DNA from: Glycomyces artemisiae
Lineage (GTDB): Bacteria; Actinomycetota; Actinomycetes; Mycobacteriales; Micromonosporaceae
Assembly: GCF_003002955.1 (NCBI RefSeq)
Contig: NZ_PVTJ01000003.1
Span: 372,001 to 436,000 of the forward strand
Reading direction: 5' to 3'
Length of the DNA: 64,000 bases
Made by a program: the position numbers and the translations under genes. Below are positions 38,815-46,618 of the stretch, piece by piece. The notes under the pieces were generated by a model. It saw nothing but the letters and a program-made list of their open reading frames with translations. It was not told the DNA's origin and did not search any database. The first letter of the stretch is position 1. Every line of letters begins with the position of its first letter.

Positions 38815-39396
38815 TCAGCGCGCGGCGGGGAAGAGCCTGCCGACGGCGGTGACGACGGCGGCGCGGCGGTCGCGGAGGTACTGCTCGCGCTCGGCCGGGT
38901 CGGCGGGGAGGAAGTCGATCGTTCCGGCCCATGAGGCGGCGATCTGGTTGAGCAGCACCACGATGTCGATGGGGTCCCAGGACGGGTCGAGCAGGCCGTC
39001 CACCTGCGCCTTGGCGACGCGTTCGAGCTTGCCGGCCATGGTCGCGCGGATCGGGTCCTCGGTGTCGCCGGGGTCGAGTTCGAGGCGGCCCCACTGCATG
39101 AGCCGGTACCGCTCGGGGTGGGCGGCGTAGTAGTCGTGGAGGCGGCCCGCGTAGCCGGGCAGGTCGGCGGGGTCCATGCGCGTGGCCTCGACGATGGCGC
39201 TCAGCTCCGCGGCCGAGACGTGCCGGTAGAGGGCCTCCTTGCTCTTGAAGTAGGCGTAGACGCGCTCCTTGCTGGTCTTCGCCGCTTTCGCGATTCGGTC
39301 GATGCGGGCGCCCGCGATTCCGTAGCGTGCGAACTCGGTGCGCGCGGCCGCGAGGATGCGGTCGCGCGTGGCTTCGGGGCTGGTCGTGGGCGGCAT
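38815..39396 (-). CDS. TetR-family regulator (controls aldo/keto reductase)
   Basis: 193 residues. HTH IDRIAKAAKTSKERVYAYFKSKEALYRH (~residues 32-59) and a C-terminal TetR_C-like helical domain (QYLRDRRAAVVTAV). Divergent from the aldo/keto reductase, with a duplicated 18-bp operator between them, so it probably represses both. Ligand unknown; aldehydes or quinones would suit the target. Confidence 0.86.
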   Translation of the reverse strand: MPPTTSPEATRDRILAAARTEFARYGIAGARIDRIAKAAKTSKERVYAYFKSKEALYRHVSAAELSAIVEATRMDPADLPGYAGRLHDYYAAHPERYRLMQWGRLELDPGDTEDPIRATMAGKLERVAKAQVDGLLDPSWDPIDIVVLLNQIAASWAGTIDFLPADPAEREQYLRDRRAAVVTAVGRLFPAAR

Positions 39397-39413
39397 ATGC
39401 CCAGCATACCTGC

Positions 39414-40472
<1,059 letters not shown>

Positions 40473-40487
40473 GCCGCAAGGCGATCG

Positions 40488-40520
40488 CCCTGACGGGGGG
40501 CCGGAGGCCGCCCGTCAGGG
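40488..40520. terminator. Bidirectional terminator between aldo/keto reductase and marR
   Basis: 10-bp stem CCCTGACGGG/CCCGTCAGGG (40488-40497 with 40511-40520) with a 13-nt loop. The right arm includes the marR stop codon, so it serves both convergent genes. Confidence 0.72.
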
Positions 40521-40994
40521 CCGGGTGCGCTCGATCTGGTCGGTGACCTTCGCGGAGAGGCGTCCGAGTTCGGCGAACTCCTCCGGGGTGAGGGCGTCGA
40601 GGACGAGGCGGCGCACGGTGGCGACGTGCTTGGGGGCGGCGGCTTCGATGACGGCGCGGCCGTGCGCGCTGATGGCGACGTAGGCGCCGCGGCCGTCCTC
40701 CTCGCACTCCTCGCGGGCGACGAGGTCGCGCTTGGCCATGCGGCGGATCTGGTGGGAGAGGCGGCTCTGCTCCCAGTCGATCCCCTTGGCGAGGTCCTGG
40801 AAGCGGACGCGGCCCTCGGGCACGTCGGTGAGCGCCACGAGCACCTCGAAGTCGGAGGACGACAGCCCCGAGTGCGCCTGGAGGTCGGCGGCCATGCGCG
40901 CGGTGAGCTTCATGTGCAGGCGCACGAAGGCGCGCCACGAGCGCTGCTCGTCGGCGCTCAGCCAGGGGACCGCGCCCGGGTCGGTGTCGTTCAC
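40515..40994 (-). CDS. MarR-family regulator of the pirin/NmrA cluster
   Basis: 159 residues. Winged helix SSSDFEVLVALTDVPEGRVRFQDLAKGIDWEQSRLSHQIRRMAKRDLVAREE (~residues 46-97) between dimerisation helices. No obvious single redox cysteine pair: the only Cys is in REECEED (~residue 98), in the wing, which could be a redox sensor. Divergent from the NmrA-like gene with TGAYRYRTCA-type sites between. The same site occurs before the pirin-GNAT and TPR genes, so it likely controls the whole 41-45 kb cluster. Confidence 0.87.
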   Translation of the reverse strand: MNDTDPGAVPWLSADEQRSWRAFVRLHMKLTARMAADLQAHSGLSSSDFEVLVALTDVPEGRVRFQDLAKGIDWEQSRLSHQIRRMAKRDLVAREECEEDGRGAYVAISAHGRAVIEAAAPKHVATVRRLVLDALTPEEFAELGRLSAKVTDQIERTRP

Positions 40995-41011
40995 GCCACC
41001 ATTCTACCTTC

Positions 41012-41058
41012 TAGTTGACGCGTCATCTAACTAGCGCTACGGTAATTGATACGTCATG
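41012..41058. promoter_or_regulatory. MarR operators between marR and the NmrA-like gene
   Basis: TAGTTGACGCGTCATCTA (41012-41029, containing the perfect palindrome TGACGCGTCA) and a second copy of the core, TGATACGTCA (41047-41056). Related 18-mers stand at 43467 and 44987. Consensus core TGAYRYRTCA. Confidence 0.7.
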
Positions 41059-41109
41059 TATTTCCGGAATCCGAGACATGGCGACCCGAGTACGTGGAAG
41101 GTGAAGACC

Positions 41110-42057
41110 ATGGCAGACAAGCAGATCATCGCGGTCGTCGGCGCCACCGGGCAGCAGGGCGGGGGCCTCGCGCACGCGATCCTCGCCGATCCGGGCTCCG
41201 CGTTCGCGGTCCGGGCGATCACCCGCAACCCGGACTCCGAGAAGGCGAAGGAACTGGCCGCGCTCGGCGCCGAGGTCGTGCACGCCGACCTGGACGACGA
41301 GGCGAGCCTCGCGAAGGCGTTCGAGGGCGCGTACGGAGCGTTCCTGGTCACCAACTTCTGGGAGCACATGTCGCCCCAGCGCGAGTACGACCAGGCGCGG
41401 AACCTCGCGCAGGCGGCCGAGACCGCGGGCGTGCAGCACGCGATCTGGTCCACACTGGAGGACACGCGCAAGTCCGTGCCCCTGGACGACGACCGGATGC
41501 CGACCCTCCTCGGCGAGTACAAGGTCCCGCACTTCGACGTCAAGGGCGACGCGAACGCCCTGTTCACTCAAGCCGGGGTGCCGACGACGTTCCTCCAGAC
41601 CACGTTCTACTGGGACGGCTTCCTCACCGGCTTCGGCCCCCAGCGCCAGGAGGACGGGAGCCTCGTCCTCGCGATGGCCATGGGCGAGAGCAGGCTCGCC
41701 GGGATCGCCTCCGAGGACATCGGACGCACCGCCTACGGGATCTTCAAGCGCGGCACGGAACTCGCGGGCGAGACCGTGTCCATCGCGGGCGAGCACCTCA
41801 CCGGCGCCGAGCTCGCCGCGGCCTTCACCGAGGCGGTCGGCGAGCCCGTCCACTACTACGCCGTCCCGTTCGACGACCTGCGCGCCGCCGGGTTCCCGGC
41901 CGCCGAGGAGATCGGCAACATGTTCCAGTACTACGCCGAGTTCGACGCGGAGTTCACCGGCCGCCGCGACCTCGCGAAGGTCCGCGAGCTCAACCCGCAG
42001 CTCAAGACCTTCCGCGAATGGCTTGCGGCCCACAAGGACGCGTTCGCGTCCCTCTAG
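41110..42057 (+). CDS. NmrA/HSCARG-like NAD(P)-binding redox-sensor protein
   Basis: 315 residues from ATG 41110 with GGAAGGTGAAG upstream. N-terminal dinucleotide loop VVGATGQQGGGLAHAIL (~residues 9-25), TRNPDSEKAKEL binding the phosphate side, FLVTNFWEHMSPQREYDQARNLAQAAETAG, and the AIWSTLED segment in place of an SDR Tyr-x-x-x-Lys. This composition matches NmrA-like proteins that sense the NADP(H) state, and quinone-reductase-like proteins of the same fold. Divergent from marR with two operators between, so part of its regulon. Followed by an 18-bp-stem terminator. Confidence 0.85.
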   Translation: MADKQIIAVVGATGQQGGGLAHAILADPGSAFAVRAITRNPDSEKAKELAALGAEVVHADLDDEASLAKAFEGAYGAFLVTNFWEHMSPQREYDQARNLAQAAETAGVQHAIWSTLEDTRKSVPLDDDRMPTLLGEYKVPHFDVKGDANALFTQAGVPTTFLQTTFYWDGFLTGFGPQRQEDGSLVLAMAMGESRLAGIASEDIGRTAYGIFKRGTELAGETVSIAGEHLTGAELAAAFTEAVGEPVHYYAVPFDDLRAAGFPAAEEIGNMFQYYAEFDAEFTGRRDLAKVRELNPQLKTFREWLAAHKDAFASL

Positions 42058-42064
42058 AACGGAC

Positions 42065-42105
42065 CGGCCGCCCGCCGGGCTCTGCGCGAGCCCGGCGGGC
42101 GGCCG
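42065..42105. terminator. Bidirectional terminator between NmrA-like and pirin-GNAT genes
   Basis: An exceptionally long perfect stem: 18 bp, 42065-42082 with 42088-42105, 5-nt loop TGCGC, filling the whole gap between the two convergent stop codons. Confidence 0.85.
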
Positions 42106-42106
42106 T

Positions 42107-43453
42107 TCACTGCTGCGGGCCGAGTTCGGCCTCCAGCCAGTGGAGGACCTGCGGCGAGGGCCGGTCGACGGCCTCGGCGAACTCGGGGTGCCTCTTGACG
42201 AAGCGGGCGACGTACGGGCAGACGGGGACGATGCGCATCCCGGCTTCGCGCGCGTCGAGGAGCGCCTGCTCGACCAGTGTGGACGCCAGGCCCTTCCGGG
42301 CGAAGGATTTGTCCACTTCGGTGTGGTAGAAGATCCGCTGGCCGCCGCGGTCGCGGTAGGCGGTCAGGCCCGCGCGGGCGCCGTCGACCGCGATCTCGTA
42401 GCGCCGCTCAGCGTCGACGCGGCGCACGACCGGCTCGGCCGTGGTCTCTTCCGAGTACTCATCGGTCCGCTCGGGCGGCGGCGGGTTGCGCCGGGGCATG
42501 ATGACGGCGTTCGGCAGCGGTGGCGCGGGGAGGCGGCTGCCGGGGTAGCCCTCGACGGCGCCGAAGCGGTCGGTGGCGGCCTCCCACTCGTCGCGGGCCT
42601 CCACGATCTCGTCGTGGGTGCGGGCGATGAAGTTCCACCACATGACGATCTCCTCCTCGAACGGCGGGCCGCCGAGCAGGATCAGCCGCGCCGGGGCGTC
42701 GGCGTCGTTCGCCAGGGTCAGGGTCGCGGCCCCGGGCGCGGCGTAGCCGAGTTCGGCGTGGCGGAGCAGGGTGCCGTCGAGGCGGACCTCCCCCGCGTCG
42801 ACGAGCACGCCGTGTTCGAAGGAGCGGTCGACGTCGAGCACCGCAGTGGAGCGCGGCGCGAGGTCGATCTGGGCGCCCAGCAGCGGCGTGAACGTGCGGA
42901 CCGGCGAGGCGGACCCGGCCAGCGCGCCGAGGAAGACCCGGATCTCCGCGCCCTCGACGTGCACCGGTTCGGGCACGTAGTGCTGGAAGTCGCGGCCCGC
43001 GTGCCGGTCGGCCTCGGGGAGCGCGACCCACAGCTGGACGCCGTGGACGACGGTGGTGGCGGGGGTGGAGACCTCGGAGTGGGCGATGCCGCGGCCGCCG
43101 GTCATGAGGTTCATCTCGCCGGGGCGGATGAGCGCGTGGGTGCCGAGGCTGTCGCGGTGCTCGATCTCGCCGCTGAAGAGCCAGCTGACGGTCTGGAGGC
43201 CGGTGTGCGGGTGCGGCGCCACGTCCATGCCGCCGGTCTCCGGGACCGCGACCGGGCCGTAGTGGTCGGCGAAGCACCAGGCGCCGATGAGGGTGCGGGC
43301 CCGCTGCGGGAGGGTGCGCCGGACCAGCAGCGCCCGGGGGCCGCCGAGGGGGACTTCGCGGGCTTCGAGGACTTCGACACCGCCCGCGGCGCCGACGGGC
43401 GGCACGCACCGCACCGCCTCCGGGGCCGTCTCCGTGTTGCTCACCTGGACCAC
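42107..43453 (-). CDS. Pirin fused to a GNAT-like acetyltransferase domain
   Basis: 448 residues, GTG start at 43453 (GTG 43444 also possible). Residues ~20-320 are a pirin bicupin: FADHYGP, metal motif APHPHTGLQTVSWLFSGEIEHRDS, GGRGIAHSE and the C-terminal GGPPFEEEIVMWWNFIARTHDEI. A proline-rich linker (NPPPPERTDEYSEE, ~residues 332-345) leads to a small GNAT-like domain (~355-448) of the YjdJ/CG type (AGLTAYRDRGGQRIFYHTEVDKSFARKGLASTLVEQAL, VPVCPYVARFVKRHPEF). Pirins bind Fe and act as redox-responsive cofactors or quercetin dioxygenases; CG-type GNATs are small acyl-CoA transferases. The fusion is unusual. A MarR-type site lies just upstream (43467-43484). Confidence 0.85.
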   Translation of the reverse strand: MVQVSNTETAPEAVRCVPPVGAAGGVEVLEAREVPLGGPRALLVRRTLPQRARTLIGAWCFADHYGPVAVPETGGMDVAPHPHTGLQTVSWLFSGEIEHRDSLGTHALIRPGEMNLMTGGRGIAHSEVSTPATTVVHGVQLWVALPEADRHAGRDFQHYVPEPVHVEGAEIRVFLGALAGSASPVRTFTPLLGAQIDLAPRSTAVLDVDRSFEHGVLVDAGEVRLDGTLLRHAELGYAAPGAATLTLANDADAPARLILLGGPPFEEEIVMWWNFIARTHDEIVEARDEWEAATDRFGAVEGYPGSRLPAPPLPNAVIMPRRNPPPPERTDEYSEETTAEPVVRRVDAERRYEIAVDGARAGLTAYRDRGGQRIFYHTEVDKSFARKGLASTLVEQALLDAREAGMRIVPVCPYVARFVKRHPEFAEAVDRPSPQVLHWLEAELGPQQ

Positions 43454-43466
43454 CTGCCGTTCGAAC

Positions 43467-43484
43467 TGGTTGTCACATCATCTA
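43467..43484. promoter_or_regulatory. MarR-type operator before the pirin-GNAT gene
   Basis: TGGTTGTCACATCATCTA, matching TAGTTGACGCGTCATCTA (41012) at 14 of 18 positions and TAGTTGACATATCATCTG (44987) at 14 of 18. It lies 14 bp upstream of the GTG start, a position suited to repression. Confidence 0.6.
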
Positions 43485-43576
43485 TATGTCGACGAGCTTA
43501 GTCCTACGATCATGGACGCCGGCCGCATCCGCGGTCGGTTCTCGAAAGAGGCGCAGCGCGAGCAGGTGCCGCGGCG

Positions 43577-44455
43577 TCAGCGGTCGTAGGCGAGGCGGGC
43601 GGTGCGCGGGACCGGGCCGAAGGCGCCGGACTGGAAGTCCTGGAACGCCTGGGCGATCTCGGTGCGGCTGTTCATGACGAACGGGCCGCCGAACGCGACG
43701 GGCTCGCGCAGCGGCGTGCCGCTGTAGACCATGATGCGCGCCGGGGCGTCGCCGTCGGGGACGGCCAGGTGCAGCACCGTCTCGTCAACGCCCGCAACGG
43801 GATCGGACCAGCCGGTCTGCCCGGCGGCGACCTCGCGTCCGCCGACGAGCGCGCGGCCCGCGACCACGTGCGCGAACAGCCGGTGCTCCCCTGGGACGGC
43901 GAGGTCGAAGGACGACTGCGGGTCGATCGCGGCGAGCAGGCCCTGCACCGGCTGGTGGGTCTGCGCCGTCCCGGTCACGCCCGCGACGGTGCCCGCGTGG
44001 ACGTCGATCGAGACGCCCGGCGCCTCGAAGCGCCGCATCTTGGCGAGCGTGAGGTCCTGGTAGCGGGAGTCGGTGAGCTTCTTGGCCTTGGGCAGGTTGA
44101 GCCAGAGCTGGAGGGTGTGCGCGTGCTCGTTGCGGTAGGCGAGCTCGCGGTGGACGATGCCCTTCCCGGCGGTCATCCACTGCACCTCCCCCGGTTCGAG
44201 GGCGCCCGCGTGCCCGAGGTTGTCGCCGTGTTCGAGCACGCCGTCGATGACGAGCGTGACGGTTTCGAGCCCGCGGTGCGGGTGCCATTCGAAGCCGGGC
44301 TCGGAGAACCAGTCCTCGGCCATGATGAGGAACGGGTCGGTGAGCGCGGGGTCGTTGGGCGCGAAGGCCAGCGCCTTGTCGTCGACCTGGGAGTCGGGCC
44401 CCAGGCGGCGGGCGTCCTCGATCCGGTCGAGGGTGCGGGCGGTCGTTGCGGTCAT
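43577..44455 (-). CDS. Pirin family protein
   Basis: 292 residues from ATG 44455 (GGAGA about 9 nt upstream; ATG 44464 would leave no spacing). Bicupin with FLIMAEDWFSEPGFEWHPHRGLETVTLVIDG (metal His pair and Glu, ~residues 39-69), GEVQWMTAGKGIVHRELA, and the C-terminal GTPLREPVAFGGPFVMNSRTEIAQAFQDFQSG. Pirins are non-haem iron proteins. It follows the TPR gene in the same direction across a stem-loop (44483-44508), so the two probably share a MarR-controlled promoter. Confidence 0.88.
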   Translation of the reverse strand: MTATTARTLDRIEDARRLGPDSQVDDKALAFAPNDPALTDPFLIMAEDWFSEPGFEWHPHRGLETVTLVIDGVLEHGDNLGHAGALEPGEVQWMTAGKGIVHRELAYRNEHAHTLQLWLNLPKAKKLTDSRYQDLTLAKMRRFEAPGVSIDVHAGTVAGVTGTAQTHQPVQGLLAAIDPQSSFDLAVPGEHRLFAHVVAGRALVGGREVAAGQTGWSDPVAGVDETVLHLAVPDGDAPARIMVYSGTPLREPVAFGGPFVMNSRTEIAQAFQDFQSGAFGPVPRTARLAYDR

Positions 44456-44482
44456 GTGGTTCATTCTCCGCTCGTTCGGTGG

Positions 44483-44508
44483 GGCCGGGCGCCGTTCGGC
44501 GCCCGGCC
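44483..44508. terminator. Stem-loop between TPR and pirin genes
   Basis: Perfect 11-bp stem GGCCGGGCGCC/GGCGCCCGGCC (44483-44493 with 44498-44508), 4-nt loop GTTC. Placed between two co-directional genes, so it may attenuate rather than fully terminate. Confidence 0.6.
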
Positions 44509-44519
44509 GGTGGCTCGGG

Positions 44520-44966
44520 CTACTCGGCGGCCGCGACGCCGAAGGCGGCGGCCATGCGCTTCCAGGACGCGGCCTCGTCGTGGCGGCCCTGGCGTTCGAG
44601 GGTGCGGGCGAGCAGCAGGTGGGCGTAGTGCTCGACCGGGTCGCGGTCGATGAGCTCGCGGAGCTGCTCCTCGGCCCGGCGCAGCTGCGCGGAGTGGTAG
44701 TAGGCGCGGGCGAGCAGGAGGCGGGGCCCGGTCGGGCCGGGGGCCTCCTCGACGAGCGCGGCGAGGAGCTTCGCGGCCCCGATGTAGTCGCGGGCCTCGA
44801 AACGGGCGTTCGCCCGCTCCCAGCGCTCGAACGGCCCCTCCTCGCGGGGCGCCGGCACGCCGCCGGGGGCGACACCGTCCGCGACGCCGTCGAACAGGTG
44901 CGTCGCGGCTACGAAGCGGTCGGGGGCGGCCTCGCCGCTGGGCAGGAAGTCGTTGAAGTCGTTCAC
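44520..44966 (-). CDS. Tetratricopeptide-repeat protein
   Basis: 148 residues, GTG start at 44966 with GGAGG upstream. Starts MNDFNDFLPS. The centre holds about three TPR-like helical pairs: WERANARFEARDYIGAAKLLAALVEEAPG, PRLLLARAYYHSAQLRRAEEQLRELIDRDP and YAHLLLARTLERQGRHDEAASWKRMAAAFG. No signal peptide, so cytoplasmic. Small TPR proteins of this form often accompany pirin genes in actinomycetes, but their partner is not known. Headed by a MarR-type operator at 44987-45004. Confidence 0.8.
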   Translation of the reverse strand: MNDFNDFLPSGEAAPDRFVAATHLFDGVADGVAPGGVPAPREEGPFERWERANARFEARDYIGAAKLLAALVEEAPGPTGPRLLLARAYYHSAQLRRAEEQLRELIDRDPVEHYAHLLLARTLERQGRHDEAASWKRMAAAFGVAAAE

Positions 44967-44986
44967 GGCCCTCCGTCACCTCCAAC

Positions 44987-45004
44987 TAGTTGACATATCA
45001 TCTG
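44987..45004. promoter_or_regulatory. MarR-type operator before the TPR-pirin unit
   Basis: TAGTTGACATATCATCTG, identical to the 41012 site at 15 of 18 positions, 20 bp upstream of the TPR start. The 82-bp gap to aztA contains nothing else recognisable. Confidence 0.65.
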
Positions 45005-45050
45005 TACCCGCCGGAACGCCTCCGCGTCCACCCCTATTCCCTCCGACGCC

Positions 45051-45707
45051 TCAGCGGCTTCCGCCGGGGACCGGCGCGGGGGCGATTCGGCCGTGGGCGA
45101 GGGCGAGGTGGTGGTCGGCTTCGGCGGCGTCGGCGGGGTCGTGAGTGGCGTGGACGATCGTGGTGCCGCGGGCGCGCTCCTCGGCGAGGACCGCGGTGAT
45201 GGCGTCCTTGGCGGCGGCGTCGAGGCCGGTGGACGGTTCATCGAGGATGAGCAGGTCGGACTGCTGGGCGAGGCCCTGGGCGAGGAGGACGCGCTGGCGC
45301 TGGCCGCCGGAGAGGGTGCCGAGGCGGCGGGCGGCGAGGTCGGCGACGCCGAGGCGGTCCATGCAGCGGTCCACGATGGACCGGTCGTCGCGGGTGAGGG
45401 GGCGCCACGGGCCGCGGTGGGCCCAGCGACCCATCGCGACGGTCTGGCGGACGGTGATCGGGAGGGCGTCGGCGGCGTCGCTGCGCTGGACCACGAATGC
45501 CGCGCGGCCCGAGTGCGAGCGCCGCAGCGATCCGGAGGCGGGCGGGTGGACCCCGGCGAGGACGCCGAGGAGGGTCGACTTCCCCGATCCGTTGTGCCCG
45601 GTGACCGCCGTGATGCGGTGCAGCGGAACCGCAATGGTGACGTCGTGGAGCACGGTCGCGGCGCCGTAGCGGGCGCTCACCCCGTCCAGCTCGATCGCAG
45701 CGGACAT
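45051..45707 (-). CDS. aztA: Zinc ABC transporter ATPase AztA
   Basis: 218 residues from ATG 45707; GTG 45719 is a longer alternative. Single nucleotide-binding domain: Walker A GHNGSGKST (~residues 37-45), Q-loop VVQRSD, signature TLSGGQRQRVLLAQGLA, Walker B DLLILDEPSTGLD and switch HATHD. It is encoded on the opposite strand from aztB and shares a regulatory region with it that contains a Zur-like box, so both halves of the importer respond to zinc together. Confidence 0.85.
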   Translation of the reverse strand: MSAAIELDGVSARYGAATVLHDVTIAVPLHRITAVTGHNGSGKSTLLGVLAGVHPPASGSLRRSHSGRAAFVVQRSDAADALPITVRQTVAMGRWAHRGPWRPLTRDDRSIVDRCMDRLGVADLAARRLGTLSGGQRQRVLLAQGLAQQSDLLILDEPSTGLDAAAKDAITAVLAEERARGTTIVHATHDPADAAEADHHLALAHGRIAPAPVPGGSR

Positions 45708-45730
45708 GCTGTGGATCACTCCCCCTCGGT

Positions 45731-45769
45731 TTGAATTCGAAAACGATTTTCATTATAGTTCTGGCCGTG
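45731..45769. promoter_or_regulatory. Divergent aztA/aztB promoter with Zur-like box; leaderless aztB start
   Basis: Plus strand: -35 TTGAAT (45731-45736), 17 bp, -10 TATAGT (45754-45759), with GTG 45767 seven bases after the -10, so the aztB mRNA should start at or next to its start codon. Minus strand: -10 TATAAT (45757-45752) for aztA. The dyad GAAAA-CGA-TTTTC (45739-45751) between the plus-strand -35 and -10 resembles a Zur/Fur box and would block both promoters when zinc is ample. Confidence 0.7.
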
Positions 45770-46618
45770 GAATGGTTGACCAGCCCCTTCGAAGTCGGAT
45801 TCGTGGCGCGCGCCCTGTGGGGCGGCCTGCTCGTCTCGGCGATCTGCGGGCTCGCGGGCACATGGGTCGTGCTGCGCGGCATGGCGTTCATGAGCGACGC
45901 CATGTCGCACGGGATGCTCCCGGGCGTCGCCGTCGCCGCGCTCCTCGGCGGGAACCTCCTGCTCGGCGCCGCGCTCAGCGCGCTCGCGATGGCCTTCGGC
46001 ATCACCGCGCTCTCCCGTTCCAAGCGGCTCTCCCAGGACACCGGCATCGGGCTGCTGTTCGTCGGGATGCTCGCGGCGGGCGTCATCATCGTGTCCCGCT
46101 CGCAGTCGTTCGCCGTGGACCTCACCGGGTTCCTGTTCGGCGACGTGCTGTCGGTGCAGCACGCCGACCTCGTCGTCCTCGGCTGCGCCCTCGCCGCGGC
46201 CGTCCTCATCGCCGCCGCCTGCCACCGGTCCTTCGTCGCGCTCGCCTTCGACCGCCGCAAGGCCGCCACCCTCGGCCTGCGCCCGGGCCTGGCCCAGGGC
46301 CTCATGGTCGGGCTCCTGACGCTCGCCATCGCCGCGTCGTTCCACGTCGTCGGCACATTGCTCGTCTTCGGCCTGCTCATCGCGCCGCCCGCGGCGATGG
46401 CTCTGTGGGCCGACCGCATCCCGGTCATCATGGCGGGCGCCGCCCTGCTCGGCGGCGCCGCCACCGCGGGCGGCCTCCTCGCCTCCTGGCACCTCGGGAC
46501 GGCCGCGGGCGCCACCATCGCCGCGCTCGCCGTCGCCTCCTTCTTCGCCTCCGCCCTGGCCGCGCTCGTGCGCGACCGGCTCCCCTTGCGCCCCACCGTA
46601 GAACCGAAAGGACCCTGA
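45767..46618 (+). CDS. aztB: Zinc ABC transporter permease AztB
   Basis: 283 residues from GTG 45767. The longer frame from 45731 would translate the -35, Zur-like box and -10, so it is rejected. ABC-3 type permease with eight or so hydrophobic segments and the family blocks GTWVVLRGMAFMSDAMSHGMLPGVAVA (~residues 29-55), ALAFDRRKAATLGL (coupling helix) and VVGTLLVFGLLIAPPAAM. Moves Zn2+ (or Mn2+) into the cell with AztA and AztC. Stop TGA is immediately followed by the ATG of the next gene. Confidence 0.86.
   Translation: MEWLTSPFEVGFVARALWGGLLVSAICGLAGTWVVLRGMAFMSDAMSHGMLPGVAVAALLGGNLLLGAALSALAMAFGITALSRSKRLSQDTGIGLLFVGMLAAGVIIVSRSQSFAVDLTGFLFGDVLSVQHADLVVLGCALAAAVLIAAACHRSFVALAFDRRKAATLGLRPGLAQGLMVGLLTLAIAASFHVVGTLLVFGLLIAPPAAMALWADRIPVIMAGAALLGGAATAGGLLASWHLGTAAGATIAALAVASFFASALAALVRDRLPLRPTVEPKGP

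Follow-up and report, generated by a model that had tools for sequence, protein, structure and literature searches.

In a 64,000-nucleotide stretch of the Glycomyces artemisiae genome, referred to here as the window, a MarR-type regulator gene and neighboring genes for NmrA-like, pirin and tetratricopeptide-type (TPR) proteins stand behind copies of one inverted-repeat operator. Comparison with related genomes and characterized regulators leads us to a reading that we give a probability of about three in four: the operators would define an autoregulated regulon of a MarR repressor of the AbsC/SCO3205 subfamily, which would be released by a ligand and would govern detoxification-type genes. The operator recurs before orthologous genes in other species of the genus, and a paralogous MarR gene in the same genome is preceded by the same core.

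Operators in the window and the source genome

An earlier note on this DNA had reported related 18-mers at 41012, 43467 and 44987, together with a further core at 41047. All three 18-mers are present, and they are inverted repeats. Operator 1 (TAGTTGACGCGTCATCTA; 41012..41029, listed like the other operators without strand) is common to the divergent marR and NmrA genes. The same holds for operator 2 (TAATTGATACGTCATGTA; 41043..41060), a weaker fourth 18-mer that follows operator 1 by 31 base pairs (bp), lies 49 nucleotides (nt) before the NmrA start and contains the TGATACGTCA core at 41047. The pirin-GNAT operator (TGGTTGTCACATCATCTA; 43467..43484) is a TGTC variant; its conservation in relatives argues that the variant site is functional. 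The operator of the TPR-pirin unit is TAGTTGACATATCATCTG (44987..45004). These sites precede the units that the earlier note had assigned to them, with distances to the start codons of 17 nt for marR, 13 nt for pirin-GNAT and 20 nt for TPR.

Pfam matches agree with the gene identities that had been proposed. The marR gene (40515..40994, minus strand) encodes a 159-amino acid repressor of the AbsC/SCO3205 subfamily from a GTG start (MarR_2, 6e-11). Divergent to it lies the gene for an NmrA-like protein of 315 amino acids (41110..42057, plus strand; NmrA, 3.4e-52), which presumably binds NAD(P) as expected for its family. The fusion of a pirin to a GNAT acetyltransferase (42107..43453, minus strand; 448 amino acids) matches Pirin, Pirin_C and Acetyltransf_CG. 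In the TPR-pirin unit, also on the minus strand, the 148-amino acid TPR-repeat protein is encoded by the first gene (44520..44966; TPR_19, 4e-11) and a second pirin by the gene behind it (43577..44455, with the start at 44455 or 44464; Pirin and Pirin_C). HPH and GIAHSE motifs in the fusion, and HPH and GIVHRE motifs in the second pirin, are what we take to be metal ligands.

A pattern derived from the sites, searched with up to two mismatches, gave four matches in the window: the three 18-mers without mismatch and the opposite strand of the site at 41012. Dinucleotide shuffles of the window (n = 100) gave a mean of 0.63 matches and a maximum of 3, and none reached 4. Since the sites themselves supplied this pattern, the spread of sites over genomes provides the stronger test.

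Across the 5.79-Mb source genome, we counted 8 places with the 12-base core WTGAYRYRTCAW and 0 with the reversed pattern that served as control. Two of these places belong to marR/NmrA and one to TPR. Another four are at C3:341593-342240: a paralogous MarR gene (C3:341719; 39% identical to the window MarR and 70 kb away) has two before it, and the other two precede a gene for a luciferase-like monooxygenase, which is followed by an F420/NADP-type reductase gene. The last, at C2:759889, is between a LigB-like gene, so named by its likeness to a Pfam-tested protein of locus L090, and a further MarR gene of the subfamily. Each of the 8 places precedes a MarR gene of the AbsC/SCO3205 type or a linked redox gene. 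Two sites escape the core pattern, namely the TTGTC-containing site at 43467 and, on C5, the site TAGTTGACTGTTCAACTA that precedes a DoxX gene. When the 18-mer was searched loosely over the whole genome, with two mismatches, it was not enriched (19 and 14 matches versus 115 and 113 for the control); only the best loose matches are meaningful, and stricter patterns were therefore used. MarR genes of the window subfamily account for 11 matches in this genome at an E value of 0.001 or better, the window marR included.

The pair at C2:759889 (L217, 1466-1513) resembles sco3204/sco3205 and has TTGA-N4-TCAA sites. Inspection by eye revealed a flavodoxin/WrbA-like gene downstream.

Conservation of the operator in the genus and family

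Among 22 genomes of the genus, the pattern TAGWTGAYRYRTCAWCTA with at most one mismatch identified 31 sites in 14 genomes; the control gave 0 in all 22. Placement against homologs revealed that 29 of the 31 sites adjoin genes for MarR, the paralog, the monooxygenase, an AhpD-like protein, pirin or pirin-GNAT, TPR or DoxX/NmrA. The remaining two are located between an isochorismatase gene and a RibD_C gene in genome G124.

We compared the best 18-mer in the 200 nt upstream of each gene with those in 200 shuffles of the same stretch, for which the smallest possible p value is 0.005. Matches starting after query residue 12, upstream stretches shorter than 120 nt, identities below the limits (60 to 75%) and repeats sharing the same last 100 nt were left out. 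Sites at p ≤ 0.02 precede 15 of 15 MarR genes, 8 of 8 paralogs, 10 of 10 monooxygenase genes, 6 of 6 AhpD-like genes, 13 of 14 pirin-GNAT genes and 4 of 5 second-pirin genes; the one second-pirin miss is the window's own gene, which stands behind TPR. The MarR, paralog, monooxygenase and second-pirin genes came from protein searches, and most AhpD-like and two NmrA entries stem from loci that had been retrieved through the motif. Of the 14 pirin-GNAT and 10 monooxygenase genes, 2 and 1, respectively, are from other genera of the family. At most loci with both AhpD-like and pirin-GNAT genes, one divergent site is common to the two.

Sister species combine these genes differently. A single cluster in G099, and likewise in G117, comprises the genes for the window MarR, the paralog, the monooxygenase, the AhpD-like protein and pirin-GNAT. 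G049 has such a cluster, which lacks the paralog; the set is divided over two loci in the genome of the window. MarR, TPR and pirin genes stand in a row in G121 with a site before each.

Could the 18-mers be chance repeats, or likenesses to promoter elements that no regulator reads? Their TTGACR hexamers do resemble -35 elements. Both halves of the palindrome are conserved, however, and even the TGTC variant before pirin-GNAT is kept; together with the absence of control matches in the 22 genomes, this makes such an origin extremely improbable. Chance repetition was rejected on the window shuffles and on both controls, that of the 22 genomes and that of the core.

Beyond the genus, matches to the window MarR at an E value of 1e-25 or better are present in 50 of 61 sampled family genomes. 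A plasmid search returned 94 records, of which 47 were from Streptomyces. In 11 of the 15 other-genus regions around the best MarR matches, a site with a score of at least 17 lies near the MarR gene; in the other four (L075, L078, L079 and L086) no site of that score was found near MarR. Neighbors of these MarR genes encode NmrA (L080, and L081 by eye), pirin (L076) and YceI (L074, and L075 by eye). Within the genus, further MarR genes have FMN (flavin mononucleotide) reductase or LigB neighbors (L088 and L090).

The earlier note had also drawn conclusions on the extent of the system. That the operator marks a gene set of redox type holds across species. It is not confined to 4 kb, and elsewhere in the genome it marks the paralog, the monooxygenase and the reductase as well; nor does a compact system with a single MarR gene fit a genome in which a paralog has the same operator, the subfamily is represented many times over and sister species mix the sets. 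The five families do not form a fixed set either. The TPR gene was found by protein search in 3 of the 22 genus genomes and a second-pirin ortholog (at least 79% identity) in 5 of the 22, and the genome of the window was the only one in which TPR was seen to adjoin the second pirin. Joint action of the proteins, NAD(P) sensing by the NmrA-like protein and an adaptor function of TPR, all put forward in the earlier note, are conjectural.

The pirin-GNAT fusion appears as a single-frame match spanning both domains in 5 of 8 genus genomes sampled (G000, G049, G099, G108 and G117); in G126 and G131 it was recovered by tblastn as one piece. No such single-frame match is listed for the 113 other sampled genomes, where the fusion of a pirin to a distant GNAT might have escaped notice; in some of these, pirin and GNAT frames are adjacent.

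At two loci, a DoxX-like gene is preceded by three tandem operators spaced 31-32 bp apart (L211, 2965-3045; L209, 4748-4828); the next gene encodes NmrA in L211 and the paralog MarR in L209. Three operators are likewise located between the isochorismatase-family and RibD_C genes of G124 (L213, 2057-2147), which are possible further members of the regulon.

The regulator and its proposed mechanism

Comparison of the window MarR with solved structures identified two members of the AbsC/SCO3205 subfamily as the closest, PDB 3zmd (phmmer 6e-30, residues 8-154) and 3zpl (4e-24, residues 10-152), with similarity that extends over nearly the whole protein. We take 3ZPL to be SCO3205, which its sequence fits. 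3ZMD is AbsC, according to the available part of the published structural study (PMC3737563). Orthology to either protein was rejected: in a tree that did not include SCO7727, the window MarR groups in a clade of its own (support 0.999; some genes are present a second time as re-cut copies), and neither AbsC nor SCO3205 is part of it.

The recognition helix SRLSH is identical in the window MarR, its paralog, SCO3205 and AbsC. Residues Arg72, Ser73 and His77 of SCO3205 contact bases in operators with the consensus TTnAAnnnTCAA (PMC3737563, in the text available). In the window MarR (QSRLSH), Ser77, His81 and the wing Arg are kept, and the equivalent of Arg72 is Gln, which is Arg in the paralog. 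The helix His is invariant in 15 MarR and 8 paralog sequences; these and the other residue counts refer to the groups of 15 MarR orthologs and 8 paralogs, and a further group of 60 sequences, which includes differently cut second copies of some genes, was left out. The operator cores TTGACGCGTCAT, TTGATACGTCAT and TTGACATATCAT fit the TTGA-N4-TCAA spacing of O3204 (TTGAACTCTCAA); one half reads TCAT in place of TCAA, and the site at 43467 has TTGTC. This shared helix and spacing point to a MarR dimer that would bind TAG(T/A)TGAYRYRTCA(T/A)CTA, with a TTGA-N4-TCA(A/T) core, in the manner of SCO3205.

Lying on the -35 element, the -10 element or both, the bound repressor would block RNA polymerase not only at the marR promoter but also at the promoters of NmrA, pirin-GNAT and TPR-pirin. 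A possible NmrA promoter (41015..41043, plus strand; TTGACG-N17-TACGGT, as read by regular expression) has its -35 within operator 1 and its -10 touching operator 2. Promoters of the monooxygenase gene are arranged alike: TTGAYN-N17-TANNNT overlapping the operators is readable in 8 of 9, where one operator encloses the first hexamer and the following operator has the second at its edge.

The identity of the helices raises the question of which repressor reads the operators. One answer is that they are read mainly by the paralog, or by both proteins indistinctly, and that the window MarR is chiefly autoregulatory. We regard this as quite unlikely. It draws on the occurrence of the same core at both loci and on G125, where the window-MarR ortholog is absent among 3 MarR matches, yet a perfect TAGATGACACGTCAACTA site is kept. 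Against it, no ortholog of the paralog is among the MarR matches of G049 (5) and G123 (3), yet both keep TAG-type sites. The second monooxygenase operator (L193) has decayed in G049, as might happen if the two repressors used separate sites, an argument tempered by G123, in which this operator is intact though none of the 3 MarR matches is the paralog. In the regulon of the window MarR proposed here, the paralog, whose own gene and neighbors have the same operator, would probably read an overlapping set of sites.

A more elaborate arrangement, which we hold to be unlikely, is that the two repressors have one operator core in common and divide a detoxification regulon between them according to the flanks (TAG...CTA versus TGAT...ATCA) of tandem sites 28-32 bp apart. 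Two chemical signals would then be integrated at the same promoters, one repressor having a wing cysteine and a pocket and the other the pocket alone, and pirin-GNAT would combine an oxygenase and an acyltransferase that serve the same substrate path.

In AbsC, a Trp/His pair holds salicylate (PMC3737563, in its available portion). The corresponding residues of the window MarR are Trp20 and His123, equivalent to Trp18 and His120 of the AbsC pocket, and both are kept in 15 of 15 MarR orthologs and 8 of 8 paralogs. A small aromatic acid, a quinone or a similar electrophile bound in this pocket may release MarR from DNA. Such release would induce enzymes that handle these compounds, consistent with a role in the detoxification of quinones and aromatic electrophiles.

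RosR (Cg1324) of Corynebacterium glutamicum is a MarR regulator with three redox cysteines that controls monooxygenases and FMN reductases; its operator consensus is TTGTTGAYRYRTCAACWA. The window MarR, likewise divergent to its neighbor and by our reading autoregulated as RosR is, differs in having one cysteine in 15 of 15 orthologs. RosR responds to H2O2, and its neighbor cg1322 is proposed to bind polyisoprenoid, as stated in the available part of PMC5401885. One RosR site (TAGGTGATATGACAACAC), taken from the available part of PMC7764795 and compared by eye, resembles the window operators in shape. By analogy, the window repressor could be released when peroxide or hypochlorite oxidizes Cys97 of its wing, an explanation that also gains from the presence of Cys97 in all 15 orthologs, AbsC and SCO3205. 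We find such a thiol switch rather unlikely: Cys97 is the only cysteine of the protein and all 8 paralogs have Ala in its place, whereas the Trp/His pair is conserved in MarR and paralog alike. An exact scan of genome contigs for the RosR site returned 2 unrelated records only, one archaeal and one rhizobial.

Several observations weigh against a ligand-released regulon of the window MarR. Because the paralog shares the operator, a site does not by itself identify its reader, and the inducing ligand is predicted from a single residue pair. NmrA genes have a site within 200 nt at p ≤ 0.02 in 3 of 7 cases only; of the four misses, those in L143 and L145 stand behind an operator-bearing pirin gene, that in L211 behind an operator-bearing DoxX-like gene, and that in L125 is without any. 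Apart from its rarity in the genus, TPR has a site in 2 of 3 genomes (the window's own and G121); the best that precedes the unlinked copy of G117 is a weak match (score 14, p 0.13). The pirin-GNAT relative L100, from another genus, has no site, and neighbors in some family regions (for example, L079, L082 and L085) have no plain link to the theme. The counts of upstream sites are not independent and are descriptive, because the score derives from such sites, the genomes belong to related species and the motif was used to retrieve some of the loci. Finally, the -10 of the NmrA promoter is poor; the promoter reading is tentative because a stricter sigma-70 consensus scan of 40400-45200 reported no promoter.

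Known systems and neighboring genes

The MhqR and YodB quinone regulons of Bacillus have target genes of similar kinds (DoxX-like, FMN reductase and dioxygenase); they differ from the present one in phylum and operators.

The nearest known systems are those of SCO3205, AbsC and SCO7727 in Streptomyces coelicolor, which, in the available text of PMC3737563, share with the window MarR the SRLSH helix, the TTGA-N4-TCAA spacing, the Trp/His pair and the presence of two operators in a divergent intergenic region. In vitro sites of SCO3205 precede genes for dioxygenase-like, polyisoprenoid-binding-like and reductase-like proteins (PMC3737563, same text). The second of these recalls the YceI gene that neighbors a family relative of the window MarR in L074, YceI being taken here as the same family as the polyisoprenoid-binding protein. 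Unlike the operators of AbsC and SCO3205, those of the window have TAG...CTA flanks, and the targets here are pirins, NmrA, TPR and the monooxygenase. A further difference from SCO3205 is that the arrangement of sco3204/sco3205, as given in the accessible part of PMC3737563, is resembled in the source genome by a separate LigB-like/MarR pair.

Because the regulator belongs to a known subfamily with known DNA recognition, the kind of system has already been described, and the earlier note's proposal of an undescribed one does not extend to it. As for gene content and layout, neither the gene set nor the two-repressor arrangement was found in the titles and abstracts of open-licence papers, a scope that makes this a weak negative. 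The authors of the SCO3205 study saw no clear physiological theme in its candidate regulon, according to the part of PMC3737563 available. The operator-marked genes here (monooxygenase, AhpD-like, pirin, NmrA, DoxX-like and reductase) suggest one, and a theme of this kind predicts the class of inducer and gives a testable gene set. The regulon would also add a regulatory setting for pirins and for the pirin-acetyltransferase fusion; pirins modulate AcdB in Streptomyces and pyruvate dehydrogenase in Serratia (PMC13118837, as far as its available text goes).

On one side of the MarR locus (38815-40472), a TetR regulator gene and an aldo-keto reductase gene are divergent, with an inverted repeat of their own between them (CCGAACCGTTCGG type, by eye). 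This pair was considered as a member of the regulon and rejected, given the different repeat and the lack of any match to the operator pattern there. On the other side (45051-46618) are genes for an ATP-binding cassette transporter of the zinc type, the ATPase of which scores above the NCBIfam cut-off for AztA. Between this ATPase gene and a divergent permease-like gene, a Zur-like box (GAAAACGATTTTCATT) was recognized by eye.

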